Shown: positions 5,681 through 64,000 of the stretch, in pieces
Layout of the letters: each line of letters starts with the position of its first letter
Numbering within the stretch: the first letter of the stretch is position 1
From: Spiroplasma litorale
GTDB taxonomy: Bacteria; Bacillota_I; Bacilli_A; Mycoplasmatales; Mycoplasmataceae
Length of the DNA: 64,000 bases
Direction: 5' to 3'
NCBI RefSeq assembly: GCF_001267155.1
Contig: NZ_CP012357.1
Span: 620,001-684,000 of the forward strand
Position numbers and translations under genes: made by a program
Notes under the pieces: generated by a model
The model's input: the letters and a program-made list of their open reading frames with translations, nothing else
Told to the model about the DNA's origin: nothing
Database searches by the model: none

Positions 5681-6526
5681 TTATAACTTTATTCTCCTTT
5701 CATTATAAAATTTTGAGTATAAATTAAAATTATATACATATTCTTCAATTGATTTATATTTTTTATTCTCTATTATAGCTTCTCTTTTTAATACGCTTCA
5801 AAAGCCTTCTATATAACCATTATCAGTTGATCTACCAACTCTAGACATGCTTATATTTAAGTCAAAATTCATCAGCATTAATTTATATGTATAGGATTTA
5901 AACTCTGAACCATTATCAGAGTGAATAACGCTATTTGGTTTAAAAACTCCAAACTCATCAACCATTTTTAAAAATGATTCAACAACAAGTGATATACCTT
6001 TTGATGTCTTTGTAATTAATCCATAAATTTTTTTCTGCTTAATATTATAAAAACCACAAGTGTAAAGTCTTGATTTATTAATGACTTTTTCTGTTATGTC
6101 AACACTAAAAACATCGCCAAATTTTTTCAAATCTGCGTTTGTTTTTATTAATCTTTCATATTTACCAACTTTTTCTATGTGATTTTTTGTTTTCTTTGGA
6201 GTTTTGTAATTATTTACTTTAAAATTTGAAAAAATCATATATCTTCTTATTTTTTTATGAGAGCATATATTATTTAAATCAATCGCTAATCTTCTTGAAC
6301 CATATGTTTTCCCAAAATCAATAAAACTTTTCTCAATATTTGATAGTAATTCATAATCTATATGTTTAAACTTTGGTTTTTTATTTTTAATTCAATCATA
6401 ATATGTTGATTTACCTAGTTTTATTATTTTGCAAAGTTTTCTTATTGTTATTTCGTTGCTCAAAATTTTTTTATTGTATACAACAGTGCATTTATATATG
6501 CAAAGTTGTCACTTATTTACTTTTTT
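5681..6526 (-). CDS. IS-B transposase OrfB (rve DDE domain), read by -1 frameshift from OrfA
   Basis: Catalytic part of the transposase, which cuts and joins the IS ends. The open frame runs from just after a TAA at 6527-6529 to TAA at 5681-5683, with internal TGA read as Trp. Visible DDE landmarks are VFSVDIT (first Asp), VIHSDNGSEF (second Asp) and STDNGYIEGFWSVLKRE (Glu). There is no convincing own start. OrfA ends in an A8 run (6521-6528) where a -1 slip leads directly into this frame, as in most IS3 elements. This reading frame is intact, but OrfA of this copy is not, so autonomous activity is doubtful. Confidence 0.8.
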
Positions 6527-10913: not shown

Positions 10914-12174
10914 TGAAATTATCAATTAAAATTGACATTAAAAAGATACTTTCTCCATACGAATTTCGTATGGAGTTTTTTTATGTTTTAATGAAGGTCT
11001 AACATAATTATAAAACTCTATATAGTCTGAGATAATTTTATAAATATTTGAATGATGTAGTTCTTTTACTTTATATGTATATATACATTCATTTTTAAAA
11101 GTTCCAAAAAAAGACTCACAGGCACCATTATCTGGTGAATTTCCTCTTCGTGACATAGAAATATTTATATTATTAGTTTTACATAATCTTTCTCAAGTTT
11201 CATTTGTATATGGTGATCCTTGATCTGAGTGGATTATCTTTGGTGCACCTCTTTTTTTAATGGCGCTTATTAAATTTGTATGACATAATTTATTATTAGG
11301 ACTAACCGATAACTTTCAATCAATAATTTCTGAATTAAACAAATCCTTTATAACAGATAGATATACGTTTCCATTAATAGTTTTTATATAAGTTACATCT
11401 GTTACTCATTTTTCATTTATATTTTTAGATTTAAAGTTTCTATTTAGTAGATTTTCAAATCTTAATGGACCTGATTTATATAGTTTGGAACTTTCTTTTT
11501 CTTTGCTGCTTTTAAACTCATTATTTTCATATATCTATAAACAACTCAAGGGTTTAATCTTTCTTTAAAGTATTTGTTTAAAAATAAAGTTATCATATTA
11601 TAACCATATCTTTTTTTAAACAAGTAAAAAAGGCATCTTATCTTAATTGCTAAAATTCTATTATAATTTTTATACTTTGGTTTTCCGTTTTTAAGTCATT
11701 TTAAATATCCATACCTTGAAACTTTTAAATATAAACAAGATAATTTCAAAGAAAACATTCTTTTAACATTAAAAATGGCGAAGTACTTTTCCTTAGTTGT
11801 CTTCGCCAAATGCTTTTTTAAAGCTCGTTCCAGTTTCAAAGCCTCTCTTAATTCTTCAATGCTCATATCATCAGGTTCTTTAAAAATTCAATCATGAGAT
11901 TTAAATTTTTTGATATTTCCTTTTGCTTGTGTTCCGCTACCTCATTCAAGAGCGCCTTCACCTTTAACTTTTACCTCTGATTTTCATCTTTTAATTGTGC
12001 TAGTACTAATATCAAACTTTAATGCCGCATTTAAAATACCAATTTTTTTTGATTCATTAATTATATAAAGTTTTTCGTTTTTTGTTCATTGTTTTGCCAT
12101 ATAAAAAGAACACCTTTCAATAAAATTTTAACAATAAAAGTACTTTTTTACTGTCAATTTTATTTTAGATGTTC
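10914..12174 (-). mobile_element. IS-A copy 1, IS3-family element (1261 bp)
   Basis: The right end is TGAACATCTAAAATAAAA (minus-strand reading); the left end is a diverged version beginning TGAAATTATC. It is flanked by GTTT on both sides (10910-10913 and 12175-12178), a 4-base target duplication. It is nearly identical to copies at 30769-32031 and 61721-62982. Confidence 0.85.
10938..12100 (-). pseudogene. IS-A transposase, one-base deletion
   Basis: IS3-type transposase with an N-terminal helix-turn-helix (start MAKQWTKNEK at ATG 12100) and a C-terminal DDE core (TDVTYI, IIHSDQGSPY, DNGACESFFGTFKNE). Compared with copy 2, which reads through as one frame, this copy lacks one base near 11476 (TTATATAG against TTATCATAG), which breaks the protein in the middle of the integrase domain. 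The catalytic HSDQG motif is intact here. Confidence 0.75.
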
Positions 12175-30768: not shown

Positions 30769-32031
30769 TGAAATTGTCAATTAAAATTGACATTAAAAAG
30801 ATACTTTCTCCATACGAATTTCGTATGGAGTTTTTTTATGTTTTAATGAAGGTCTAACATAATTATAAAACTCTATATAGTCTGAGATAATTTTATAAAT
30901 ATTTGAATGATGTAGTTCTTTTACTTTATATGTATATATACATTCATTTTTAAAAGTTCCAAAAAAAGACTCACAGGCACCATTATCTGGTGAATTTCCT
31001 CTTCGTGACATAGAAATATTTATATTATTAGTTTTACATAATCTTTCTCAAGTTTCATTTGTATATGGTGATCCTTGATCTGAGTTGATTATCTTTGGTG
31101 CACCTCTTTTTTTAATGGCGCTTATTAAATTTGTATGACATAATTTATTATTAGGACTAACCGATAACTTTCAATCAATAATTTCTGAATTAAACAAATC
31201 CTTTATAACAGATAGATATACGTTTCCATTAATAGTTTTTATATAAGTTACATCTGTTACTCATTTTTCATTTATATTTTTAGATTTAAAGTTTCTATTT
31301 AGTAGATTTTCAAATCTTAATGGACCTGATTTATCATAGTTTGGAACTTTCTTTTTCTTCACTGCTTTTAAACTCATTATTTTCATATATCTATAAACAA
31401 CTCAAGGGTTTAATCTTTCTTTAAAGTATTTGTTTAAAAATAAAGTTATCATATTATAACCATATCTTTTTTTAAACAAGTAAAAAAGGCATCTTATCTT
31501 AATTGCTAAAATTCTATTATAATTTTTATACTTTGGTTTTCCGTTTTTAAGTCATTTTAAATATCCATACCTTGAAACTTTTAAATATAAACAAGATAAT
31601 TTCAAAGAAAACATTCTTTTAACATTAAAAATGGCGAAGTACTTTTCCTTAGTTGTCTTCGCCAAATGCTTTTTTAAAGCTCGTTCCAGTTTCAAAGCCT
31701 CTCTTAATTCTTCAATGCTCATATCATCAGGTTCTTTAAAAATTCAATCATGAGATTTAAATTTTTTGATATTTCCTTTTGCTTGTGTTCCGCTACCTCA
31801 TTCAAGAGCGCCTTCACCTTTAACTTTTACCTCTGATTTTCATCTTTTAATTGTGCTAGTACTAATATCAAACTTTAATGCCGCATTTAAAATACCAATT
31901 TTTTTTGATTCATTAATTATATTAAGTTTTTCATTTTTTGTTCATTGTTTTGCCATATAAAAAGAACACCTTTCAATAAAATTTTAACAATAAAAGTACT
32001 TTTTTACTGTCAATTTTATTTTAGATGTTCA
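30769..32031 (-). mobile_element. IS-A copy 2, IS3-family element (1263 bp)
   Basis: Same element as at 10914-12174 and 61721-62982. Right end TGAACATCTAAAATAAAA on the minus strand; left end the diverged TGAAATTGTC version. A 3-base duplication CTT flanks it. This is the only copy with an uninterrupted transposase frame. Confidence 0.87.
30793..31956 (-). CDS. IS-A transposase, single full-length frame (387 aa)
   Basis: IS3-type transposase that would excise and insert the element. ATG at 31956 (MAKQWTKNEKLNIINESKK) opens a helix-turn-helix region, followed by a middle region with many Lys/Arg, then the DDE core: EKWVTDVTYI (first Asp), a second-Asp motif reading IINSDQGSPY, and DNGACESFFGTFKNE (Glu). 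With TGA as Trp the whole gene is one frame, so no frameshift is needed. The usual His before SDQG, present in copy 1, is Asn here, which may weaken catalysis. Confidence 0.8.
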
Positions 32032-46078: not shown

Positions 46079-47923
46079 TTAATCTCTAATAAATAAATTT
46101 TCTAAAAATTCTATTTTTTGTTGTTTTTTAGTATCTGTAAAAACACTTGGAGTTACTAATTTATATATAAACCTACTATACAAATCTTTTTTAAATGAAA
46201 ATGCAGAGGCAGAATAAGGTTTATTTGATTTATCTAAATTTTTTGTATATAATTCATAAATTTCATCATAGGAAGCTTTTACAAAATCGGTTAAACCTGT
46301 TTCATCAAAACCTTTATAACTTAAAAAAATACTTTCATTATAAATTAATTTATTATTTAAAATTTCATCTGCCGAATCAATGCTTGTTAAGTAAGCAAAC
46401 TCATCCTTGTAATTATAAATTAATCATAATGTTGATATTAATCAATTCTCTATACTTTTAATTAAGGTTTGAACAATAGGGATGTCACCAAAATTAATAT
46501 AATTATTTATTTTTTTAATTAGTTTTGATGCATCTGTATAAAATTTAAAAACATTCAAATAATATTCTTCCTTTAATTTATCATTTTTGAATATCTTATT
46601 GTATAATTCATCACTAAAAATTTTAGATTTTTTTTGATTTGCTTCATATGGTTTCAAAAAAATTGTACTTAAAACATATTGTGCAAGCACATCATTTTCT
46701 AATACTAAAGGTTTCTTAATATTTAAATTTTCTGAAATATTTTTAATTACTTTATAGTTGCTTTCCCCTCTTTTTACATTTAGAACAAAACCATTTTTTT
46801 CAAAAAAATCTCTTAGACTTCTCATTTCTATTGAGTTTGATCTAAAATCACGAGGTTTTACAGGTTTCTGATTATTTGAAGATTTTGTAATTTTTTCAAC
46901 TAGTAAATTATAGTCATTATTTTTAGACTGTACAATTTTTGCGATTACTTTTACTTTATTGATGTTGTCTTTTAGTTCATTACTTTTATAAAATTTAGCT
47001 AAATTTGTAACTGTTTGAGCACCATTTACAATTGAAAAATTTGTTAATTTGACAAGATTATTATTTATATCTAAATCACCAATATTTTCTGCAACAATTG
47101 TAATTCCATTATTGTATATGATAAATTTTTCTGGTTCTTCATTAACGGTCATTTTTATGCTTTGATCAACTGATTTTGATGCTGCATCACCAGAAATACT
47201 ATACCTTATGTTTCTATCAAAAATTCTATTTTCAAATTTTTGATAACAATTAACAAGGGAAGTGGCCTCAAGTGTACATAATAAAATTTTTTCATTCTTA
47301 GTTTCATAACTAAATGTATTTGTTAGTTTAGTTTCAGCATTATTTTGGTTTACAAAAGTAAAATTATAAACTAGGTTACCATCTGTTAGGTTTTCATCCT
47401 CTTCTCCTTCTAATTTATTATTTAGTTTTTTTCTATCATAAAAGTTAAAATCTCCGTAATTATCAATATCGCTATAAATGCTTAATTTTTTATATAAATC
47501 TTTAATTTCATTATCAGATATATAATTATTAATTATTATATTTATATCGAAATTATAAGCATCATTTCTACAAATATTTTCAAGTAAATCTTTATAGTTA
47601 GGTCTTAAATTATCTGGAAATAATCCTTTTTTTAAGTTATCAATAAAAATAATTATATTTTTTATAGTATCATCTAGTTCATCTTCTTCTTTGATCATGA
47701 AAAATAGAATAGGTTTTTTAAAATCTTCTGCCTCATCATAAATAATAAGTTTAGGACATTTTGAATTATTTGAATAACAAATACTATTGTCATAATCGTA
47801 AATGGCATTTGGTAAATCTTTTTCTCTAGAAAAAATAAAATGACACATTATAATTAGATTTGTTGAATTTGAATATCTGCTTTTAAGTGCTACTTCAATA
47901 TATTCTTCCAATTTATTCTTCAT
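46079..47923 (-). CDS. AIPR-family protein, abortive infection/phage resistance (614 aa)
   Basis: Member of the AIPR family. The core is recognised from FIIYNNGITIVAENIGD followed by NFSIVNGAQTVTNLAKFY and, later, KITKSSNNQKPVKPRDFRSN, the classic order in this family. The N-terminal ~150 residues are acidic and specific to this protein. ATG 47923 (MKNKLEEYIE) is preceded by GAGGAAA; GTG 47938 is an alternative. It overlaps the 3' end of the upstream nuclease-like gene by 11 bases. The family is found in phage-defence islands and often near restriction-modification genes, as here. Its biochemical role is not established to my knowledge. Confidence 0.85.
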
Positions 47924-48644
47924 ACATAATTTCCTCACATATTTTCTTTATAAATTTATCATAACAGTTTACATATAATTTATTATCATTAAAAATATAA
48001 TTATTATCATATCTAAAATTAAAATTATTTTTAATTTCAAAATTATTAATTTCTTGTAAAATTTCTCGTTTACTAGAAAATTTTTGTATATCTAAATTGT
48101 CGTCATAGACGTTAATTAATAACCTGGACGGCATTAAATACTTATTGCTTTTAATTTTATTGTACATGTCTAAGTATTTATCAAAAAAACTTTGATTTAT
48201 TTTATAAAAACTTTTTACTTTTTTTGATTCATCATAAACAGGTGTTACAGATCTAGCATTTAGTATCCAAAATGTTTTAATATCATTCAATTGAATATTT
48301 GCGGTTTCTCCAATCATATTTGATAGTGAATTTTTCAAATTTTTTTGAACACTCGATAGATATAATTTAAGTTCAATTGTTGCAACAACTTTATTTTTAA
48401 CTACGTTTAATATTGCAATGTCTGCTTTTTTATCAAATAATAAACCTTCAACTTTATATTCTTTTTTATCAATTACTTTAGAACATATTTTATACTTTTC
48501 TTTATCTAAATAAAGTGATAAATGTCTATGTATTGCATAATGAAGAATGTCAACCTTTTTTGAGCTTCTTTCATAATTTATATGATTTGGTTGGCTTATT
48601 TTAAAAATTGTTTTTTCTAGTTCAAATAAAAAATCCTTTTTCAT
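47913..48644 (-). CDS. Probable PD-(D/E)XK nuclease-fold protein (243 aa)
   Basis: Cytoplasmic protein with a likely restriction-endonuclease core: VEGLLFDKKADIAILN (Asp before a strand) then KVVATIELKLYLSS, matching D...ExK spacing, followed by a helix with GETANIQ. The residues E-L-K make it an ExK catalytic pair. ATG 48644 starts MKKDFLFELEKTI, 12 bases after the methyltransferase stop. Position between an N6-adenine methyltransferase and AIPR suggests it is the cutting subunit of a restriction-modification system, or the nuclease arm of a larger defence system. Fold assignment is by eye. Confidence 0.6.
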   Translation of the reverse strand: MKKDFLFELEKTIFKISQPNHINYERSSKKVDILHYAIHRHLSLYLDKEKYKICSKVIDKKEYKVEGLLFDKKADIAILNVVKNKVVATIELKLYLSSVQKNLKNSLSNMIGETANIQLNDIKTFWILNARSVTPVYDESKKVKSFYKINQSFFDKYLDMYNKIKSNKYLMPSRLLINVYDDNLDIQKFSSKREILQEINNFEIKNNFNFRYDNNYIFNDNKLYVNCYDKFIKKICEEIMYEE

Positions 48645-48656
48645 TTATTTACCTCA

Positions 48657-50099
48657 TTAATTTTTTTGATTAATTTTATATATTTTATATGATAGGTATT
48701 GGTGCAAATCATTTGATGAGAAAAAATAATACTCCCCATTTTTATCTTTTCTCAAAATTTTTAAATATTCTATAAATTCTTGATCATATATGAGATTTTC
48801 GATATATTTTAAATCGTATTTTTCACTAATGACATAGTACCCACTATACGGGACTATACCAGGTTTTAATATTTTTGTTTTTATTGTATTAACTGTTTTA
48901 ATTATATTATTGATCACTAATTTGTTTTTATTAACATCTTTAATTCCTTGTGTTCGTGCAAATTCAAATCAGTTTTGAGATTGTAAACTTCTTTTAGAAA
49001 GAATTTCTTTATTATTTAATAATAAATTATACATATTTTTGTTTTCGTTTTTAATTATATTTAAAGGTACTGTATTTCCATCTTCATCGTATGGATAAAA
49101 CATTTTAGTTAATTTCATTTTAGATATTTTCATAGCTTCAACAACATATGAACCAGTGTACGAATCATTAATAAAGAAACTATCTAAATTTGTTGAAATG
49201 CCATTTCTAACAAATAAATCATTATTTTTCTTAACATTTAAAATTTCACTAAATTTTAACAACTGTTTAGTTTTTGAAAAATAAAAACAATCATTTATAT
49301 AAAACTCTTTTTTTTCTAAAATATCAATTTCAAAATTAAAATTATTAATAGAATCATACTCTTTATATTTTGTTTTCTTATTTTTAATTTTTGAAATGAC
49401 AGTAATTGCTGGATATGTAGTTATACCTTTGAAAGGATTAAAATGTCCTAAATTTATAACTGTTTCTAGCATCGATTTATCAATCAAATATTTTCTAAAA
49501 ACATTGGCTGCATTTGATGTAAAGTAAGAATTTGGTGTTATGTATATAAGTTTACCTTTTTCATTAAGCATATTTAAACCTATTTCAAAGAATATTAAGT
49601 ATAAATCAATCATCCCCTTAGTACAAAAATTATATTTTTTGTAGTCAATATTAAGATCATGAATTCTAATGTATGGTGGATTACCAACGACATAATCCAT
49701 TTTATTCAAAAACTGTGTACATTCTAATGTATCACCATTTATAATATTTCAATTTATTTTAACTTTAATTCCATTTTCTAATAAAACATTATTTAAATTT
49801 GAAATACATATTTTATAAGAAATAGGGTCAATTTCAATTCCGTGTATGTATTTTTCTAGATGTTTCTTAACATCTAATCTATTTTTTTTTAATTTTAATA
49901 ATTCTTTTAAATATCTTTTTGTAATTTCAACTAAAAAAGCCCCTTCACCACAAGAATTATCAACAATGTGTTTATTTAATATTTTTTTTCCTTTGTATTT
50001 AATTTCATCCAACATATTAATAACAATATAATTGGGTGTATAAACAACGCCATCTTTTATAATTCTTTCATTTATTTTTACACTATTTATGCTTTTCAT
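48657..50099 (-). CDS. N6-adenine DNA methyltransferase, TaqI/Eco57I-like (480 aa)
   Basis: DNA-modification enzyme. SAM-binding motif I IVDNSCGEGAFLVEIT (residues 46-61), catalytic motif IV VVGNPPYIRI (NPPY at 140-143), then a FxSNAANVFRKYLIDK region and a C-terminal target-recognition half (about 260-480). Upstream VVYTPNYIVINMLD is the typical YTP motif X. Two TGA Trp codons join three pieces. ATG 50099. It is the first gene of an operon with the nuclease-like and AIPR genes. The length suits a solitary methyltransferase subunit rather than a fused type IIG enzyme. Confidence 0.88.
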
Positions 50100-50211
50100 A
50101 ATATCTCCATGTTAATAAAATTATATATAATAATTTTTGCTATGTCTACAGATTTAAAAATAAATAAAATAAATAAAAAAATTATATATAATCAATATAA
50201 AGGTGATAATA

Positions 50212-51882
50212 ATGAATGGTGTGTTTAAAAAATTTAAATTTGATCAAAACTCAATAATAGTAGATGACGATTTTAAATTTTGGCCCCATATTTATATATT
50301 ATATTCAAGTAATAAAGAATCAATTAAATGTTATGTAGGCCAAACAAATAACATAAATCAAAGAATAATAAACCACATAAATGATCGAAATAAAGATTTT
50401 AAAGAAGTAATAACTTATACTAATAAGTTATTTAATATATCTTTTACGTATGAAATAGAATCTGGTTTAATAGAATTAATGTCTTCACATGATAAATTAC
50501 TACTATCTAACCAAAAGTCGGGTAATAGTCATAATTTTTTTGAAAAAAATAAAACCCCTTATTTTATGGAAGAAATATGAAAGCACTTAGATAAATTAGG
50601 TTTAGTAAAAAATAGCCTTAAAACAATAAAAAATAGCTTATTTTATCAAATTAATCCCTTAAAACCTTTAACAAATCATCAAAATAATATAATTGAAGAA
50701 ATAAAAAATTCAATTAAGAGCAATAAATTAAATTCTTATCTAATTAAAGGTCAATCAGGAACAGGCAAAACACTATGTGCAACTGCATTATTTTATTCTT
50801 TTTGTAACGATAATGAACTAAATAAATTAAAAATTGCTTATACTTCTGGAAATACTCAATTTAGAGACGATTTATATAGAACAATTAAGAATAAATCTTT
50901 TTATTTTAATTCCAAAAATATCATGAGTCCATCTCAAATCATAAAAGATTATGTTAAAAATAACTATGAAAAGTATGATTATATAATCGTTGATGAATCA
51001 CAAAGATTAAAAAAGAGAGAAGCCTTAAGCAATTATGACGTTTTTGATAAAAATTCTAATATATTAGGACTTAATAAAATGGAAACTAACGAACTTGAAT
51101 GATTAATGAGGGTGTCAAAAAATCAAATAATCTTTTATGACGATAATCAAACAATAAAGAATTCAGATTTAAATATAAATGAAGAAATTGAAAAATGCAA
51201 CTTTATAAAATACAATTTAGTTGATGAATTAAGAATGGAAAATGCTGATGAATATTTAAATTTATTAAAAAATATACTATTTAAAGAAAAAAATAAAATA
51301 GATAGGGATAAATTAGTAAAATATAACTTTAAGGTTTTTAAATCCTTTACCGATATGTATAATATGATTAATTTAATGAACAAACAACATAATTACTCAT
51401 TTTTATTATCAGGATTAGGATTTCCTAAAAATAATTTTAAAAACACAACTGGTTATAGCTCCAAAAAGAAACAAGTACTTGAAAAAGAAGATTTTAATAT
51501 TGACGGTATTAATTTGTATTGAAATGTAATAACTCAAAATTGAGTTGACTCAGAAAAAAACTGTGATTTAAAACTGAATATAAATGAGGTTGGTTGCGTT
51601 CATGTAATTCAAGGAAAAACTTTAAATTATGCAGCAGTTATAATTTCTGAAGAAATAGACTATATAAATAAAAAACTAGTTATATATAAAGATAGATATA
51701 ATGATAGAGTGATGAAAAATAATTATGATGAAAAGATTTTTTTAAAATATATATTAAACATATATTATGTATTATTGACAAGAGGTGTAAAAGGAACTTT
51801 TATATATATAAAAAATGTTGGGTTAAGAAAAAAAATTGAAGAAATATTTAAAAAATACAATATATCAGATTTAATTATTTAA
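50212..51882 (+). CDS. GIY-YIG nuclease fused to DUF2075/SF1 helicase (556 aa)
   Basis: Two-domain protein. Residues ~25-110 are a GIY-YIG-like nuclease: PHIYILYSSNKESIKCYVGQTNNINQRI region with YVG at 41-43 and Arg51. From ~150 on it is a DUF2075-type P-loop ATPase: Walker A GQSGTGKT (180-187), Walker B DYIIVDESQRLK, DDNQTI, and a C-terminal HVIQGKTLNYAAVII...LLTRGVKGTFIY, the family's helicase-type end. ATG 50212 with AAAGGTG upstream; six Trp are TGA. It is divergent from the methyltransferase operon across a 112-base gap. This architecture occurs in defence islands; nucleic-acid degradation coupled to translocation is the expected role. Confidence 0.82.
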
Positions 51883-52932: not shown

Positions 52933-54170
52933 GTGCTGCAACCTTTTTCCGGACACATTTATTTTATAACTTTATTCTCCTTTCATTATAAAATTTTGAG
53001 TATAAATTAAAATTATATACATATTCTTCAATTGATTTATATTTTTTATTCTCTATTATAACTTCTATTTTTAATACGCTTCAAAAGCCTTCTATATAAC
53101 CATTATCAGTCGATCTACCAACTCTAGACATGCTTATATTTAAGTCAAAATTCATCAGCATTAATTTATATGTATAGGATTTAAACTCTGAACCATTATC
53201 AGAGTGAATAACGCTATTTGGTTTAAAAACTCCAAACTCATCAACCATTTTTAAAAATGATTCAACAACAAGTGATATACCTTTTGATGTCTTTGTAATT
53301 AATCCATAAATTTTTTTCTGCTTAATATTATAAAAACCACAAGTGTATAGTCTTAATTTATTAATGACTTTTTCTGTTATGTCAACACTAAAAACATCGC
53401 ATTTTTTTCAAATCTGCGTTTGTTTTTATTATTCTTTCATATTTACCAACTCTTTCTATGTAATTAGTTATTTTCTTTGAAGTTTTGTAATTATTTACTT
53501 TAAAATTTGAAAAAATCATATATCTTCTTATTTTTTTATGAGAGCATATATTGTTTAAATTAATCGCTAATCTTCTTGAACCATATGTTTTCCCAGAATC
53601 AATAGAACTTTTTTCGATATTTGATAGTAATTAATAATCTATATGTTTAAACTTTGGTTTTTTATTTTTAATTCAATTATAATAAGTTGATTTACCTAGT
53701 TTTATTATTTTGCAAAGTTTTCTTATTGTTATTTCATTGCTCAAAATTTTTTTATTGTATACAACAGTGCATTTATATATGCAAAGCTGTCACTTATTTA
53801 CTTTTTTTATTTATTAACCTTCTTAAATCCGAATACATTTCATCTCTTAATTCTTGATCTTTAAGTTGTTTTTTTAGCTGTTTATTTTCTTTTTGTAAGC
53901 TTTTAAGTTTTCTTCTAAATGTGTTTTTGAATTATCAAAAGCTTCTTCTCCAAATAAATTATAGTTTTTAACTCAATTTCTTAAACTAATTTATGATAGT
54001 TTGTAACTATTTGAATAATTTTCGTATTTAGAATTACTTTCTAAAAATAATTTACATATTTTTATTTTTTCTTCTTTAGTTTATCTTTTCATAAAAAAAA
54101 CTCTTTCCTTATAATTTTATAATCTTATTTGGATTAATTTTAAATTATGTCCGGAAAAAGGTTACACTAC
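52933..54170 (-). mobile_element. IS-B copy 2, degenerate IS3-family element (1238 bp)
   Basis: Same ends as copy 1 (GTGCTGCAAC... / ...GTTACACTAC) and high identity throughout. OrfA has a TAC to TAA change at codon 4 and a one-base loss in the AGAAGAAAACTT run; OrfB has at least one stop (TTAATAATC near 53632) and a lost base near 53400. It cannot encode its own transposase. ACAAT flanks both sides. Confidence 0.85.
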
Positions 54171-54378: not shown

Positions 54379-56882
54379 TTAAAAATCAGCATTTAGTTTT
54401 TTATTTATTAATTTTATAAAATAATCTCTTAAAGATAAATTTTCACTCTTAATATATAACTCATTATTAATTGAAGAATTACCCCCGACTATAACATCGG
54501 TCAATAAACTCCCGCTTACAAAATGTTCATCTTTAGTTATTTTAAATAAAGTATTGTGGTTTTTAGGAATTTTTAACTTATCCCAAAAATCTACTACTTT
54601 TTTAGAATATAATTCTCTATGATATGGATAAATATAAGAATCTTTCAAGAGAATAAATCCATCGTCTACTTTTTTTATAAAAGCTTTGTAATCATTACTA
54701 AATTTTTTATATAGTAGAGTGTCATTTTTTATACTTTTTACATCTTTAAAAAACTTAATTCCATAATTATATGGGAAAGATATTTTTTGTGTTTTTGCAT
54801 TATTAATTATGTAATTAAAATTATTAATAATAAATTCAGATTTTTCATCGTTAAATGATTTTGTTTTTTTTAAAAACAATAATATATTAAAATTTTTAAA
54901 ATTAACTCCAGATTGTTTGTAATATATATATTTATCATAATTAAAAATATCAATAATTACCCATTCATCATTAACAAATTCAAAAATTTCAAACCAATTA
55001 GTAAAATTATTGTTGAATATTAATTTATATTTTATTTTTTTACCACTATTTTTATCTATACATTCTAGGGGTCAAACTTTAAATTTATTACATAGATTTG
55101 ACATTGCATATTCATTTTGTTTTTTTATTAATGTTATAAAATCTTCTTTTATAAGTCTATCAATATAAAGCTTTACACCTTTAAAAATAAGTTCATTTTT
55201 ATCTATTAGTTTTTTTATATTAAAAGGTGACATGAAACATTGGAATCTATCAATTCAGTAATTTTTTATATTAATGTTTGTCGCAATATCAACAACCTTT
55301 AAAACTTTATTATTATATTTTCTAAGCCCCCTACCAAGTTGTTGAGTAAAAATTGTTTTTGATTTAGTCGGTCTTAAAAAAATTACATTACTTATTTCTT
55401 TTATGTCTATTCCTTCATTAAAAATATCAACAACACATAAAAAATTTATTTCTTTATTTATAAAATCATTAATTTTAATGTTTCTATTGATATCTCCTGA
55501 TACTAAAAAATCTGATTTGAATCCATTGTTTATTAATAAGTTATTAATTTTTTTTGCATGATCAATATTTATACAAAATATTAAGGTTGTTGAATCATCA
55601 AAAAAATAATCATTAATGGATTTTAAAACTAAATTATTTCTTTTATCATTATCTACTTTTATAATTAATTTCATTTCATTTGCTAAATCAGCTTCATTTA
55701 ATGTAATTCCACTATCGTCTTTTATTAAATAATAATCTATATCACAAACTAAGTTTTTTTCAATTGCTTCATGCAAACTCATTTTATATAATACATTATC
55801 AAAAATCGATGTTATATCTTTCATACCAGACATTCTTTCTGGTGTTGCAGTTAAAGCTATATTATTTTTGGGTTTAAAAAAGTTATATATATATTCAAAA
55901 ATATTTGTATTAGTGGAATTATCAAAGTGATGTGCTTCATCATAAAAAATAATTCCAAATTGATCTTTTGAAAATATATTTTTATCAATTAAATTTTTAA
56001 GTCTTTTATTTGTTATAAATAAATTTTTACCTTTTAGATAAATACTATCTATATTATTAATATTTTCATCATTTACTAATAAAAAATCATCATTTTTACA
56101 TATACTTTTAAATCTATTATATGCATTTGTTAATATCTCAGTTCTATGTGTGGTAAATAACATAAAGTCATTTTTAAATGCAGACTTATAATTCAAAAAC
56201 ATAAAAGCTGCTAAAAACGTTTTTCCAGTTCCAGTTGGTAAAATTACACTGTGGTTTATTTTTTCAAATTTATCATTTTCATATTTATTTAATATATCTA
56301 ATTGATAGTAGTGTGGTTTAAAATTATCATCTTCAATAGTATTTATTCTATTAAAATATTTATTTTCTAATTTATCTCATTCTTTTTTTGATAGATCACT
56401 GAAGTTTATTAAGTTATAACCTCCATTATTATTTCACATATACTCAATATCTTTATTAGCATGATGTTTTTGTTCATCATACAAAAGTATACAATTTTCT
56501 TTACCAAATAACCCACTATAACTAAAATTTGCACTTCCTGAGAATATCGCAAAATCTTTATCATAACTAAAAAAAACATTTTTTTATGTAAGGGTTTTTC
56601 GCCTCTTTTAACATTTTGTACTTTAATATTTATTGAATCTTTGTACATATCTGATATATATTTTAAATCATCATAATTAAATGATTCTCATGTTTCATTA
56701 AAAGTTGAAGTAATAACATTTATTATTCCACCTTTATTAACAAAAAAATCAAATTCATTTTTAAAAACTAAAAATGCTTCTTTTGATATAAATGGAGAAA
56801 CTATGTATATTAAATTGGATTTTTTTATATAATCTTTAAAAGTTTTAACTATATTTAAGTCATTTGAGTCAGAATAATACAT
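54379..56882 (-). pseudogene. PLD-nuclease/SF2 helicase defence protein with one frameshift (~835 aa if restored)
   Basis: The N terminus (ATG 56882 after AAAGGAATT) is phospholipase-D-like: KPLHKK then, in the next frame, FAIFSGSANFSYSGL, which together form an HxK...GSxN motif. A superfamily-2 helicase follows: PTGTGKT, IIFYDEAHH, ALTATPERM, VVDIFNEGIDI and QQLGRGLRK. The C-terminal ~300 residues are charged and unrecognised (DUF3427-like setting). A one-base change in the A7/T8 run near 56579-56590 puts the PLD and helicase parts in different frames; every other part is intact. It could be a sequencing error, a phase switch or a true knockout. Third gene of the operon with 56929-57354 and 57354-60824. 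Confidence 0.75.
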
Positions 56883-56928: not shown

Positions 56929-57354
56929 TTATTTTTTTTCTTGCTGTTGTTTTTCTCTATTAATTAAATTAGTGTGTTTTAAAAAACATTTACTAGAGTT
57001 ATTAATTTCTTTATCACTATTATAATCAAGCTTTATTTTATCAAGTATAATATTTTTTAATTGTACACGTTTTTTAGGACCGTCATTAATTACAGAGTCT
57101 CTTATTTTAAAACTACTTCTTTTATCTAAAATTTCCCTACTTAATATTTTCATTAAATTATTATAATTTTCTTCAATTTTAAATTCATAGTATTCTTTAT
57201 TGACTTCTTCTAATGCTCTATCTATATAGATTTGTTTATATTTATTTAGAGTTGCAACACAATAACTATGAATTAGGTATCCTATTGTTAGAGTTAAAGT
57301 TACAACTATAATAACTACTGATATAATTAATAAAACAATCTGTCATGTTTCCAT
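56929..57354 (-). CDS. Small membrane-anchored protein of the helicase operon (141 aa)
   Basis: ATG 57354 overlaps the helicase stop (TAATG). An N-terminal membrane helix (WQIVLLIISVVIIVVTLTLT, residues 4-23) is followed by ~115 highly charged, helical residues (EEVNKEYYEFKIEENYNNLMK, SSFKIRDSVINDGPKKRVQLKN) ending in EKQQQEKK. No family recognised. Its fixed position between two helicase-nuclease genes suggests it anchors or senses for the complex at the membrane, an inference. Confidence 0.7.
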
Positions 57355-60300
57355 TATAATTCCCCTTCGTACATATTAATTTCAGATTTTATATTGTTAA
57401 TAAACCTATTTTTAGCTATTTTGTTTTTATCTCATCAATCAGTTGATAATATTCTTAAAAACTTTCATCCTCTATTTTCTAAATATTTTTGTCTATCATA
57501 ATCATTTTGTTTACTAAACACACTACTGTGAAAAGACAATCCATCACATTCGATTGCTAAAACATATTGTTTTTTTAAAAAATCATATATTGCTAAATCA
57601 ATTTTATATCCTGATGCTGGTACTTGTGTATGTAATTTATAACGCTCTTTATTTAATCAACCATTTATTTCATCATAAACTTCAACTTCAAATTCACTAT
57701 CAAATTCCAAGTTATAATCATCAGTTTCTAAATTAAAAAGCTTGGTTTCGTTTTTTAGCATCATTTCAATTTCTTTTTCATGCTTTATTGGATCTCTTAA
57801 TAATTCACAATATTTCAAAAAATCTTTAAAATCAAGCACTCCTTTTTTTTCTGAATTAATAATTGATGAGTTTATAGATTTTATAACATACATTTTTTCT
57901 TTAGCTCTTGATACGGCCACATTCAATCTTTTTTCACCATTAACTTGTGCTAATGGACCAAAATAATTTTTAAATATGTTTGTTTTATCATAAGAAAATC
58001 CTACTGAAAATATTATTATATCCCTTTCATCTCCTTGAACATTTTCAATACTCTTTACAAAAAGTTCTTCTCCATTTTCTTTTTGATACAAATTAAAATA
58101 TAGTTCAGCATTTTTTGAACTTTCTTTTTCTAGTAAATCTAGAATTAATGATTGTTGTTCTGAGTTAAAGGTGATAATTCCAATTGATTTATTTTTTATT
58201 TTTTCATTACTTAATATAAATTTAACTAATTCTAATACTGTATTTGCTTCTTCAATATTAATTCTATTTTCTCTTATTCCGTTTACTTCTATCAACTCTA
58301 TTGGTCATTTAGTGTACTTAACTTGTTTGCTTACTATTAATTTATTTTCATAATATTTAGCATTAGAAAAATCAATTAATTCTTTATTTTTACTTCTATA
58401 ATGATATCTAAGCATTGATGATTTAAACCTTCCTTTAGCAAAATCTAATAAACTTTCAAATTTCATAGCTTCTTTTGCTTCATAATTTATTTGGTTTACA
58501 ACATCTTCATCATCTTCTATATCTTCTAATACATCATTTTTCATTTTAAAAAAACTTGTTGGCGCAAGTTGTTTATCATCCCCTGATATAACATATTTTT
58601 TTGCACGATATAGTATTGGAATACATTTTTCAGTAAATATTTGACTGGCTTCATCAAATATTGCATAATCAAATTCATTTCTTTTTAATGGAATAATTTT
58701 ACAATCAGATAATATCTCAGGAGATCCAATTATTATTGGGAAAAATAATTTAATTAATGGTAGATAGTTTTTAAATAAAGTTGATATTCTCATATTTGTT
58801 TTTGTATTACTTATTTTTCTTCCAAGATCATTAAATAATGTTTTATAGCTTTTTTCTATACCATATATTTCATCTTTGTATACACCAAGTTTAATTTTAT
58901 TTATAATATTATAAAAATAATTATTTATTATATTTTTTTTATTAATATCAACTTTATTTTCAGATAAATTGTTTATTTTTTTATATCAATCATCAGCCAT
59001 AAAATCGAATAAATTTTTATTATTTGTTTTAAAAGAATTACAATATGAAGCAATTAAAACATTATTTGTTAATTCTAAATTTATTCTACTTGTATTTAAT
59101 ATTTTTTTTATAAAATCTATAATTGTTTTAACTTCATAACTTGAATATTTTGATAAAAATTCATTTGATACTGAAATTAATTGTGAACATTGTTCTGTAC
59201 CCAAGAATTGTTTAAATTTTTTTCTATTTCAAATATTTATTTTTGTTTTAATCTTGTTTTTTATTATATAGTTATAAAATAATTCTGGAAGTTGACTATT
59301 TTCATATAGTGCGTCTAAAATAGATTCATTATAAGAATCCTTGTTTAATAATTTATGCAATAAATTTAAATCCATAATTAAATTATTTTTACTCAATAAA
59401 AGCTCTTTTACACCTAAAAATAAGTTAATTTTATCTTTTTTTATTTTTTCAGTAGTTATTTCCTCAAATTTAATTAAATATTTAACAAATGTTAGATATA
59501 ATTTACCCTCATCTTTTTTAAATAATTCTTTATATTTTTTGACTTTATCATAATATCCATCTAATTTAACAGACACTTCATCATTTTTGATTTCATTATT
59601 ATTATAAATTTGTAAGTATTCATTTACATTATTGTATATTTTTTTTATTTTTTCAAATATTATGGCAGCAGAATCGTTATTGTGGAACATTAAAGCAAAG
59701 TTGTTTAAATCATGTAGTTTATCATAAACCACTTTTGAAGCCACTTTTTTTTCAGTTACAAATATTGCTGATTTATTTTTATTTATTATATTTGCTAACA
59801 AATTTACTATTACCTGAGATTTACCAGTTCCAGGTGGACCAAATATAAATGTTGAATTTGATAAAGATTTAATAACTGCATTTTTTTGAGTGAAATCAAG
59901 TGATGAAATATTAACAAAATCTGATTCTTTATAATCAATATCAACATTTTCTAAAATATCATTAGTCTCTTTAAAAATCTCATCTAAAAAACTAATATCT
60001 TCATTTTCTAAGATATTATATGCAGATAATATTGTGCTAGATGCTATATCATATATCCCAAATGAACATACATTTAAACAAAATGCCTGATTAAAGTATT
60101 TATTGTTTTTTTCTTGAAAATTTTTACCCGCTTCATCTCTTTTATATCCTTTAGCGTTTTCAAACTCTAAATTAAAAGTGTTTTCAAAATTTTGTGGATC
60201 AGTTAACCTATAACCAATATCATTGAAATATAATATAAACTTTTCAATTAGAAGTTCTTTATCACTTAATTGTAATTCTCCTAATTCTTGATACTCTCAT

Positions 60301-60824
60301 TTCTTTTTATTTTTTAATGCTAATATATTAAAAATGGAGTTATTTAATATTAATTCATCTTCTATGACTACTTTGTATAATGAACCTCCCATATCTTTTA
60401 TTGCAATTTTTTTCAATATTAATGGGGCTCTAAAGTAATCACCTTCATTTGTTGATGCACAACCTTCCACAAAATACAGACCCATATATAAAACATTAAT
60501 ATTTTTTTCATTTGATTGCATTTTACTCTTTTGGATTATTTTTTTTATATGTTTTGCGTAACTCAATATACCCTTTGGTGTTAAATTTTCATCAGTTACT
60601 TCAATATCATAAAAACTTATAAAAAAAGTTTTAGATTCCAATGCTTTTTTAAGCGAAATTGGGGATTTATCGTTTTGGTTCAATCTTAGCAATTCTAATT
60701 TTTCTAACAATTTAAAATCTATTGTTAAAGCAGATGGCAAAAAACTGTTATAAAATATTCCACTATTTTTATTACTATTTAATAACCTACTTTTAAAATT
60801 TTTTAATAACTCATTACTATCCAT
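57354..60824 (-). CDS. Large SF1 helicase (AAA_11/AAA_12 type) with C-terminal Vsr-like nuclease (1156 aa)
   Basis: Single frame through five TGA Trp codons. The N-terminal ~310 residues are a family-specific region. The helicase has Walker A FGPPGTGKSQ (328-335), Walker B FDEASQ (723-728), ISGDDKQLAPTSF, RYHYRSKNKELI, NVQGDERDIIIFSVGF and RLNVAVSRAKEKMYVI, the order of COG1112-type superfamily-1 enzymes. The last ~100 residues are a PD-(D/E)XK Vsr/DUF559-type domain: KIDLAIYD (Asp1076), LAIECDGLSFHS (Glu1092) and DRQKYLENRGWKFLRILSTDWW. ATG 60824. First gene of a three-gene operon. Similar helicase-nuclease fusions occur in phage defence. Confidence 0.85.
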
Positions 60825-61720: not shown

Positions 61721-62982
61721 TGAACATCTAAAATAAAATTGACATTAAAAAGATACTTTCTCCATACGAATTTCGTATGGAGTTTTTTTATGTTTTAATG
61801 AAGGTCTAACATAATTATAAAACTCTATATAGTCTGAGATAATTTTATAAATATTTGAATGATGTAGCTCTTTTACTTTATATGTATATATACATTCATT
61901 TTTAAAAGTTCCAAAAAAAGACTCACAGGCACCATTATCTGGGGGGTTTCCTCTTCTTGACATAGAAATATTTATATTATTATTTTTACATAATCTTTTT
62001 CAAGTTTCATTTGTGTATGGTGCCTCCTGATCTGAATGAATTATTTTTGAAGCACCTATTTTTTTTAATGGCGCTTATTAAATTTGTATGACATAATTTA
62101 TTATTAGGACTAACCGATAACTTTCAATCAATAATTTCTGAATTAAACAAATCCTTTATAACAGATAGATATACGTTTCCATTAATAGTTTTTATATAAG
62201 TTACATCTGTTACTCATTTTTCATTTATATTTTTAGATTTAAAGTTTCTATTTAGTAGATTTTCAAATCTTAATGGACCTGATTTATCATAGTTTGGAAC
62301 TTTCTTTTTCTTTGCTGCTTTTAAACTCATTATTTTCATATATCTATAAACAACTCAAGGGTTTAATCTTTCTTTAAAGTATTTGTTTAAAAATAAAGTT
62401 ATCATATTATAACCATATCTTTTTTTAAACAAGTAAAAAAGGCATCTTATTTTAATTGCTAAAATTCTATTATAATTTTTATATTTTGGTTTTCCATTTT
62501 TGAGTCATTTTAAATATCCATACCTTGAAACTTTTAAATATAAACAAGATAAATTCAAAAAAAACATTTTTTTAACATTAAAAATGGCGAAGTACTTTTC
62601 CTTAGTCGTCTTCGCCAAATGCTTTTTTAAAGCTCGTTCCAGTTTCAAAGCTTTCTTAATTCTTCAATGCTCATATCATCAGGTTTTTTAAAAATTCAAT
62701 CATGAGATTTAAATTTTTTAATATTTCCTTTTGCCTGTGTTCCGCTACCTCATTCAAGGGCTCCTTCACCTTTAACTTTTACCTCTGATTTTCATCTTTT
62801 AATTGTGCTAGTACTAATATCAAACTTTAATGCCGCATTTAAAATACCCATTTTTTTGATTCCTTAATTATATTAAGTTTTTCGTTTTTTGTTCATTGTT
62901 TTGCCATATAAAAAGAACACCTTTCAATAAAATTTTAACAATAAAAGTACTTTTTTACTGTCAATTTTATTTTAGATGTTCA
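61721..62982 (-). mobile_element. IS-A copy 3, degenerate IS3-family element (1262 bp)
   Basis: Both ends are the full TGAACATCTAAAATAAAA repeat. No matching target duplication was found (ATTAT left, TTTAG right), which fits a rearranged site. It separates the pentapeptide remnant from the CRISPR array. Confidence 0.85.
61745..62907 (-). pseudogene. IS-A transposase, several frameshifts
   Basis: Same protein as copy 2 but with a one-base gain near 62055 (ACCTATTTTTTTTAATGG), a one-base loss near 62652 (GCTTTCTTAATTC), a T-run loss near 62850, and substitutions in the RRGN.PDN segment (NPPDN). It cannot make full-length transposase. Confidence 0.75.
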
Positions 62983-63059
62983 TTTAGGACTTTTTAAAAA
63001 AATATTTGCTATGGTATTTACAATTATTTCCTTAAATTTTAATATTAATAATTTTTTTA
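62983..63059. other. Sequence between IS-A copy 3 and the CRISPR array
   Basis: 77 bases of AT-rich DNA. It contains CTATGGTATTTAC, weakly like the complement of the repeat end, but no promoter or clear leader. It is probably the leader-distal flank, because the adjoining repeat is degenerate. Confidence 0.4.
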
Positions 63060-64000
63060 ATTTTATTACTACATAATTTTACAGGGTACCATAACCCATT
63101 AATAAAACTAAACCTTCAAAGTTTGGTTCTACTACTACATAATTTTACAGGGTACCATAACATAATCTCTTTTGCAATAGATAAAGATTTTGTTCTACTA
63201 CTACATAATTTTACAGGGTACCATAACTCTCAAGAAGCTATTTGCTTCATTTTGTTTGTTCTACTACTACATAATTTTACAGGGTACCATAACAACAAAT
63301 TCGAATTACCAAATAATGCAAAAGTTCTACTACTACATAATTTTACAGGGTACCATAACTAACCTCGCTCATATTTATTTGACCAAAAAGTTCTACTACT
63401 ACATAATTTTACAGGGTACCATAACTTAACTCCGTTTGCTCCTACATAATTCAAAGTTCTACTACTACATAATTTTACAGGGTACCATAACACATTGTAA
63501 GTTGGTATCGGGTTTTTATTTGTTCTACTACTACATAATTTTACAGGGTACCATAACTGAATAGATGAATTGACACTGTTGTTGAAAGTTCTACTACTAC
63601 ATAATTTTACAGGGTACCATAACTTCAGTTGAGTCTGGGTCAAGTGTTTCGTCGTTCTACTACTACATAATTTTACAGGGTACCATAACTAATGAAAAGA
63701 AAGGAAAAAGAATAATGACGTTCTACTACTACATAATTTTACAGGGTACCATAACCTGCTATTGTACTTTCAAAACTGTTGACAAGTTCTACTACTACAT
63801 AATTTTACAGGGTACCATAACACCATTTTTGTTTGTGATAACGTGTGATATGTTCTACTACTACATAATTTTACAGGGTACCATAACGTTAATGAACATG
63901 AACTATTAGCATCTTTGGTTCTACTACTACATAATTTTACAGGGTACCATAACGCCTGTTCCTAATGCTAACAAAGTGAACTTGTTCTACTACTACATAA
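63060..64000. CRISPR. CRISPR array: 15 repeats of 36 bp, 14 spacers of 30 bp, continues past the right edge
   Basis: Repeat starts are at 63060, 63126, 63192, 63258, 63324, 63390, 63456, 63522, 63588, 63654, 63720, 63786, 63852, 63918 and 63984 (truncated): exact 66-base period. The repeat begins GTTCTACTACTACAT and ends CAGGGTACCATAAC; 36 bases with GTT/AAC ends fits type II (Cas9) arrays of Mollicutes. The first repeat differs at positions 1, 4 and 7, which marks the leader-distal end if convention holds, so the leader and cas genes should lie to the right. Transcription direction is uncertain. The open frames that appear here merely translate repeats. Confidence 0.95.

Follow-up and report, generated by a model that had tools for sequence, protein, structure and literature searches.

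The MTase, REase and AIPR operon

The window, by which we mean the whole stretch of DNA analysed here, covers 64 kb of the 1.23 Mb chromosome of Spiroplasma litorale, which has a very low GC content. Its genes are unbroken only under code 4, the mollicute code in which TGA is read as Trp, as in Spiroplasma and its kin; under table 11, TGA interrupts the methyltransferase and AIPR genes. Three complete open reading frames fill the minus-strand span 46079-50099 exactly, in the order DNA methyltransferase (MTase), restriction endonuclease (REase) and AIPR-family protein, referred to here as the trio. The features of the locus are:

50120..50148, minus strand: promoter-like site TAGACA-17-TATAAT, 11/12 consensus, the best of the region, just upstream of the MTase gene
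48657..50099, minus strand: putative gamma-class N6-adenine DNA methyltransferase, Eco57I-type, 480 aa (Pfam, PADLOC, GNPPY)
47913..48644, minus strand: predicted type II restriction endonuclease, PD-(D/E)XK fold, 243 aa (AlphaFold, VIA-align, PADLOC relatives)
48366..48461, minus strand: predicted REase catalytic residues E62, D75 and E91-x-K93 (alignment of 14 relatives)
46079..47923, minus strand: AIPR-family protein, 614 aa from the ATG at 47923, or 619 aa from the listed GTG (Pfam AIPR, PADLOC)
47390..47923, minus strand: AIPR N-terminal domain, PD-(D/E)XK-like, catalytic motif lost (structure and profile matches)
47012..47113, minus strand: AIPR core motifs NNG and IVNGAQT, ParB/Srx-like region (39 AIPRs)

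An initial reading of the sequence alone had described the genes as 12 bases apart or overlapping. Under code 4 this was confirmed: the MTase and REase genes are separated by 12 bases, and the REase and AIPR genes overlap by 11 bases from the AIPR ATG, which is preceded by a GAGGAAA ribosome site, or by 26 bases from the listed GTG at 47938. In number, promoter-like sites here come close to the mean for shuffled sequence. From its gene content the three-gene operon is of the anti-virus restriction-modification (RM) type, with an AIPR gene as its third member.

Neighbourhood of the operon

Several other genes of interest lie close by. Adjoining the operon and divergent from it, at 50203-51882 on the plus strand, is a gene for a 559-aa protein with a GIY-YIG nuclease and a Schlafen-group-3 helicase, matched in PADLOC by Nhi and AbiO. 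A phospholipase-D-like and ResIII helicase protein at 54379-56882 on the minus strand is apparently split (54379-56484 and 56409-56882); an intact 826-aa relative lies beside the trio of another genome (L016, 12019-14499). At 57354-60824, also on the minus strand, a 1156-aa DUF4011/helicase/REase_MTES_1575 protein similar to PDC-S37, ProA and Hhe is encoded. Since its relatives are found near the trio in two other genomes (L014, 459-3926; L013, 17884 to the end), both may belong to a common defence island. A CRISPR-like array of 13 register-matched copies with a 66-base period is present at the window's end (63054-63965). IS3-like transposase copies and fragments, some frame-broken, are scattered through the window and flank the defence genes (10938-12100, 30793-31956, 61745-62851, 5681-6463 and 52964-53248).

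The methyltransferase

Pfam places the 480-aa protein in Eco57I (2.4e-21) and N6_Mtase (1.9e-19), and the PADLOC Type II MTase profile PDLC03315 matches it over nearly its full length (2.9e-104). Its NPPY sequence occupies residues 140-143 (49671-49682), and GNPPY is invariant across nine MTase relatives. The Eco57I/N6_Mtase matches and the GNPPY supply the SAM and catalytic motifs expected of the methyltransferase in a type II RM system.

The restriction endonuclease

The 243-aa protein had been put forward as a likely nuclease. Pfam scans assigned it to no family, and its sequence profile found neither a PDB relative nor a sequence match to a solved nuclease, so its identity could be settled only by comparison of folds. 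The AlphaFold model is a confident one (mean pLDDT 87.7, pTM 0.88). Foldseek alone gave no match at E <= 0.001 for this model or for that of the AIPR protein. VIA-align matched the REase model to NucC (Z 11.9), BsaWI (10.3), BbvCI (10.1), AgeI (10.1), PspGI (9.4) and NgoMIV (9.0), and the PADLOC REase_II profile matches relatives of the protein. On the strength of the model and its structure matches, the nuclease proposal holds, and we confidently assign the 243-aa protein as a PD-(D/E)XK type II restriction enzyme.

In the alignment of 14 relatives, E62, D75 and K93 are invariant. A type II system also needs an endonuclease encoded by its own gene, and here the model shows the nuclease fold and E62, D75 and K93 are the predicted active-site residues. 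E91 is present in all seven REases that are linked to an AIPR gene, giving E-x-K, while the seven AIPR-less REases all have G-x-K or A-x-K followed by a conserved GET in a helix. The switch to E-x-K may have been a single evolutionary event in one lineage.

The REase was not found in a plasmid search, in phage records (queried with a Bacteroidota member) or in viral contigs, so there is no support for the trio being phage-borne. Viral contigs searched for AIPR gave one distant match.

Conservation of the trio

Is the association of these three genes particular to this chromosome? A family survey of 60 species found eight genomes, this one included, that encode the 243-aa REase. In seven of the eight, MTase, REase and AIPR are in identical order with overlaps or very small gaps, a conservation of order and spacing that is far beyond chance. 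The proposal that the trio would be conserved elsewhere is borne out: it recurs in six further Spiroplasmataceae species with differing surroundings, although in one of them (L018) the AIPR frame is broken once, with the MTase and REase intact. The remaining genome (L017) has a decaying pair with no adjacent AIPR.

The AIPR genes of the trio form one clade (support 98/87) and, in the family genomes searched, are found beside this REase only. Intact trio AIPRs score at least 755 bits, others in the class and phylum samples at most 179; the longer piece of the frameshifted AIPR scores 170 bits.

Elsewhere, the homologous REase and MTase genes are also found side by side, like those of the trio but with no AIPR gene. 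Such pairs look intact in Bacilli (L028, L029) and Bacteroidota (L002, L003), and have the G/A-x-K with GET form of the REase rather than E-x-K. Another family of the order has the pair without AIPR and with a broken REase (L030, L031). Among the sampled genomes, AIPR has been added to the RM pair in Spiroplasmataceae only.

These distributions bear on whether AIPR is simply a passenger, an unrelated defence gene that happens to sit in an island and is functionally independent of the RM pair. A passenger would be in keeping with the defence-island character of the window and with the many REase and MTase pairs that lack AIPR, but an order and overlap fixed in seven species with differing surroundings, and the ancestry that REase and AIPR share (see below), make this explanation improbable. 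The pairs without AIPR also weaken the earlier suggestion that AIPR is the target-sensing part of the system: because the same-family pairs in L028, L029, L002 and L003 look intact without it, AIPR appears to be dispensable in those lineages.

The AIPR protein

The third protein belongs to Pfam family PF10592 (3.6e-30; 106.1 bits against a curated cut-off of 25) and is the sole AIPR in the genome. In PADLOC its best match is AbiU (7.7e-28), over profile positions 190-478 of 537, followed by MzaE (2.3e-15). Membership of the MZA systems was considered and rejected: MzaE scores 62.9 bits against a cut-off of 1050, and an adjacent GHKL ATPase, Z1 helicase or DUF4420 nuclease is absent.

We collected 39 AIPRs for a survey of their signatures, the second pass of which was read by eye. 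The nuclease signature GGNDGGIDxxx...QxK is present at the N-terminus of 18 of the 39 and in none of the six intact trio AIPRs. A working PD-(D/E)XK site in the trio AIPR was therefore rejected, D...(E/Q)xK being absent from all six. The domain itself persists, as judged from the following comparisons, with its catalytic motif gone. The AIPR model is of moderate quality (pTM 0.44) and its structure-match Z values are all below 8; on it, residues 5-183 have low-Z matches, for the most part to restriction-like nuclease folds, among them HamA (6.5), the BspD6I small subunit (6.0), Can2 (5.6) and SduA (5.2). An hhalign comparison of N-terminal profiles aligns 168 columns of the trio with the nuclease-bearing AIPRs (E 2.8e-4, probability 41%), and in the trio other residues stand at the catalytic positions.

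A HEPN domain has been stated for AIPR N-termini (PMC3506569). A reading of AIPR as a HEPN RNase was rejected here, since Rx4-6H is not conserved and is absent from the window protein, and the N-terminus has no conserved R/H pair.

The core of the protein is better conserved. N276, N277, N305 and Q308 are found in all 39 AIPRs, and the full set of core residues common to all of them reads N, R, N, N, N, Q and N and contains neither an acid nor a histidine. Such a set fits binding better than metal-dependent cutting. Residues 212-358 have weak structural matches, again on the moderate model, to ParB-N (Z 5.3) and SspE (Z 4.6), a likeness to the ParB/Srx-type defence proteins GmrSD, SspE and DndB. 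The AIPR differs from these in its motif and in having no HNH domain, and the likeness is not backed by sequence homology: the alignment of the core with DUF262, in which NGAQT falls where DUF262 has DGQQR, is not significant (hhalign E 0.12). A ParB/Srx-like fold for the core is suggestive only.

The sequence-only reading had offered AIPR as a back-up effector. One form of this is an abortive-infection protein that does nothing as long as restriction holds, and that arrests or kills the cell once it fails. Makarova et al. proposed such a role generally for AbiU1/AIPR genes adjoining RM systems; AbiU, of Lactococcus abortive infection, is the closest PADLOC match, and AIPRs without RM neighbours occur on plasmids and phages. 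Here, though, the gene is fixed in an RM operon and in the family genomes searched its type was not found without the REase, unlike a free-standing effector. With the nuclease motif gone from the trio AIPRs and HEPN Rx4-6H not conserved, an abortive effector, the main rival of the role favoured below, seems possible but rather unlikely. An independent back-up nuclease is weakened by the same two findings, and is less likely than a non-cutting accessory coupled to the REase.

Loss of the AIPR nuclease motif goes together with a co-operonic REase when kinship is ignored (Fisher p 4e-5). As proof of a link this was rejected, there being only three phylogenetically independent pairs, which is not significant; L090 is a counter-example to the association of motif loss with a nearby REase.

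Shared ancestry of REase and AIPR

The genome of L015 separates the histories of the three genes. Its MTase branches off outside every other Bacillota MTase of its family (support 100/99), whereas its REase lies within the trio clade (97/94), as does its AIPR (98/87). AU tests rejected both a grouping of the L015 MTase with the trio (p 1e-4) and an MTase-like placement of the L015 REase (p 0.001), for groups picked post hoc from trees in which some branches are long. The evidence, good though not conclusive, is read most simply as joint inheritance of REase and AIPR with a replacement of the MTase in L015. As REase and AIPR kept the trio ancestry there and the MTase did not, AIPR appears to be coupled to the REase. 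The earlier claim that the genes act together is hence best supported for REase and AIPR, which have common ancestry even where the MTase differs. The E-x-K of all seven AIPR-linked REases, against G/A-x-K in the AIPR-less ones, is a further hint that these two genes belong together, although it may reflect one event.

Co-inheritance would also fit AIPR as an operon regulator that keeps REase levels safe, comparable to DndB, a distant relative in control of the dnd genes. The DndB N-terminus was placed in the AbiU1/AIPR family (Makarova et al. 2012), and a paper from 2015 is devoted to DndB as a regulator of phosphorothioation (PMC4507180). Against this, a Pfam scan found no helix-turn-helix or other regulator domain in AIPR, and NGAQT replaces the DGQHR that is characteristic of DndB. 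Type II systems often need control proteins, but their control genes usually precede the REase gene and AIPR is the operon's last. We consider a regulator of this kind unlikely.

AIPR genes beside other methyltransferases

Genome G007 (L079, 4776-8190) has an MTase gene of the trio's family and an AIPR gene that overlap directly, without an intervening REase gene. This arrangement could be taken to mean that AIPR aids the MTase, or provides target recognition shared across the system. The L079 AIPR, however, retains the GIDYIFSNEENCYIFQSK nuclease signature and is from a different AIPR branch from the trio, and so may stand in for the REase. MTase and REase pairs exist without AIPR, and L015 kept the trio ancestry of REase and AIPR beside a different MTase. 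An MTase partner is accordingly very improbable, and AIPR as a target sensor for the MTase is disfavoured.

The L079 MTase and AIPR genes may form a restriction system of two genes. The pair suggests that restriction can be carried out by an AIPR with a nuclease signature, and that the trio AIPR, freed from cutting, may have kept another function.

Other contexts were also seen. In L084 (6313-9144) a nuclease-signature AIPR gene adjoins a cytosine methyltransferase and a type III-like Mod gene, a candidate AIPR restriction unit. In L099 (3391-5536) a second AIPR gene lies beside an MZA-like operon; after it come a gene resembling adenine methyltransferases, with a DPPY-type motif, and one for a DUF6996/DUF6997/DUF7226 protein. 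The AIPR contexts sampled include eight MZA-like operons, two of DpnII type, a single type I and a single type III.

Comparison with known systems

That AIPR is associated with RM genes is already known (Iyer et al.). A 2012 survey found the association to be frequent (PMC3506569), MZA-like systems contain AIPR (PMC9523054), and the type II RM operon Pin25611FIII of Prevotella intermedia includes an AIPR gene and a Z1-domain protein (PMC5608340). The MZA (mzaABCDE) and MORC/Z1 restriction operons likewise have AIPR beside a DNA methyltransferase and a PD-(D/E)XK protein (DUF4420) (PMC2292703, PMC9523054), but the trio operon and its immediate neighbours are without the GHKL/MutL ATPase, Z1 helicase, cytosine MTase and DUF4420 of MZA. 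Pin25611FIII, like the trio, combines a type II REase, an MTase and AIPR in one operon; it has a Z1-domain protein that the trio does not, and the likeness is one of gene content. New here are three points: this REase family in a minimal operon of three genes, the disappearance of the AIPR nuclease motif from the trio, and the evidence that REase and AIPR are coupled. These were not stated in the literature searched, which included few subscription papers.

Proposed role of AIPR

The nuclease fold and the conserved trio bear out the part of the sequence-only reading that saw a restriction-modification system; AIPR as its back-up effector or sensor did not fare as well. We tentatively favour a type II RM system in which AIPR would be a dedicated, non-cutting partner of the REase. 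The MTase would mark adenines at a specific site of host DNA and the 243-aa PD-(D/E)XK enzyme would cut DNA that lacks the mark. In AIPR, a nuclease-like domain without its catalytic motif would be followed by a ParB/Srx-like core, whose invariant residues are rich in amides, and by a C-terminus of helices. The protein would bind DNA, nucleotide or both and act on the REase, gating or boosting its cutting without cutting itself. Computation supports the gene identities, the REase fold, the conserved trio, the lost AIPR motif and the common ancestry of REase and AIPR; the ParB/Srx assignment, the binding and the effect on the REase are inferences. Counting against this role are the pairs that look intact without AIPR (L028, L029, L002, L003), the frameshifted AIPR beside intact MTase and REase genes in L018, and the counter-example of L090.

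A broader view, which we hold to be speculative and somewhat doubtful, is that AIPRs are two-module restriction factors made up of a PD-(D/E)XK nuclease and a ParB/Srx-like sensor. In some cases, as L079 suggests, an AIPR would still be the restriction subunit that accompanies a methyltransferase. In the Spiroplasma trio the nuclease would be dead, and AIPR would have turned into an obligate regulator of a separate type II REase whose active site went from G-x-K to E-x-K in that lineage.

For over a decade AIPR has carried the label of an abortive infection protein associated with restriction systems, with no mechanism to go with it. A minimal trio without a helicase or GHKL ATPase makes its role directly testable, and natural variants are at hand in the AIPR-less L028 and L029, in L079 with no detectable REase, and in L015 with its divergent MTase. 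The architecture may then be read as a nuclease domain, active or dead according to lineage, joined to a conserved sensor-like core.
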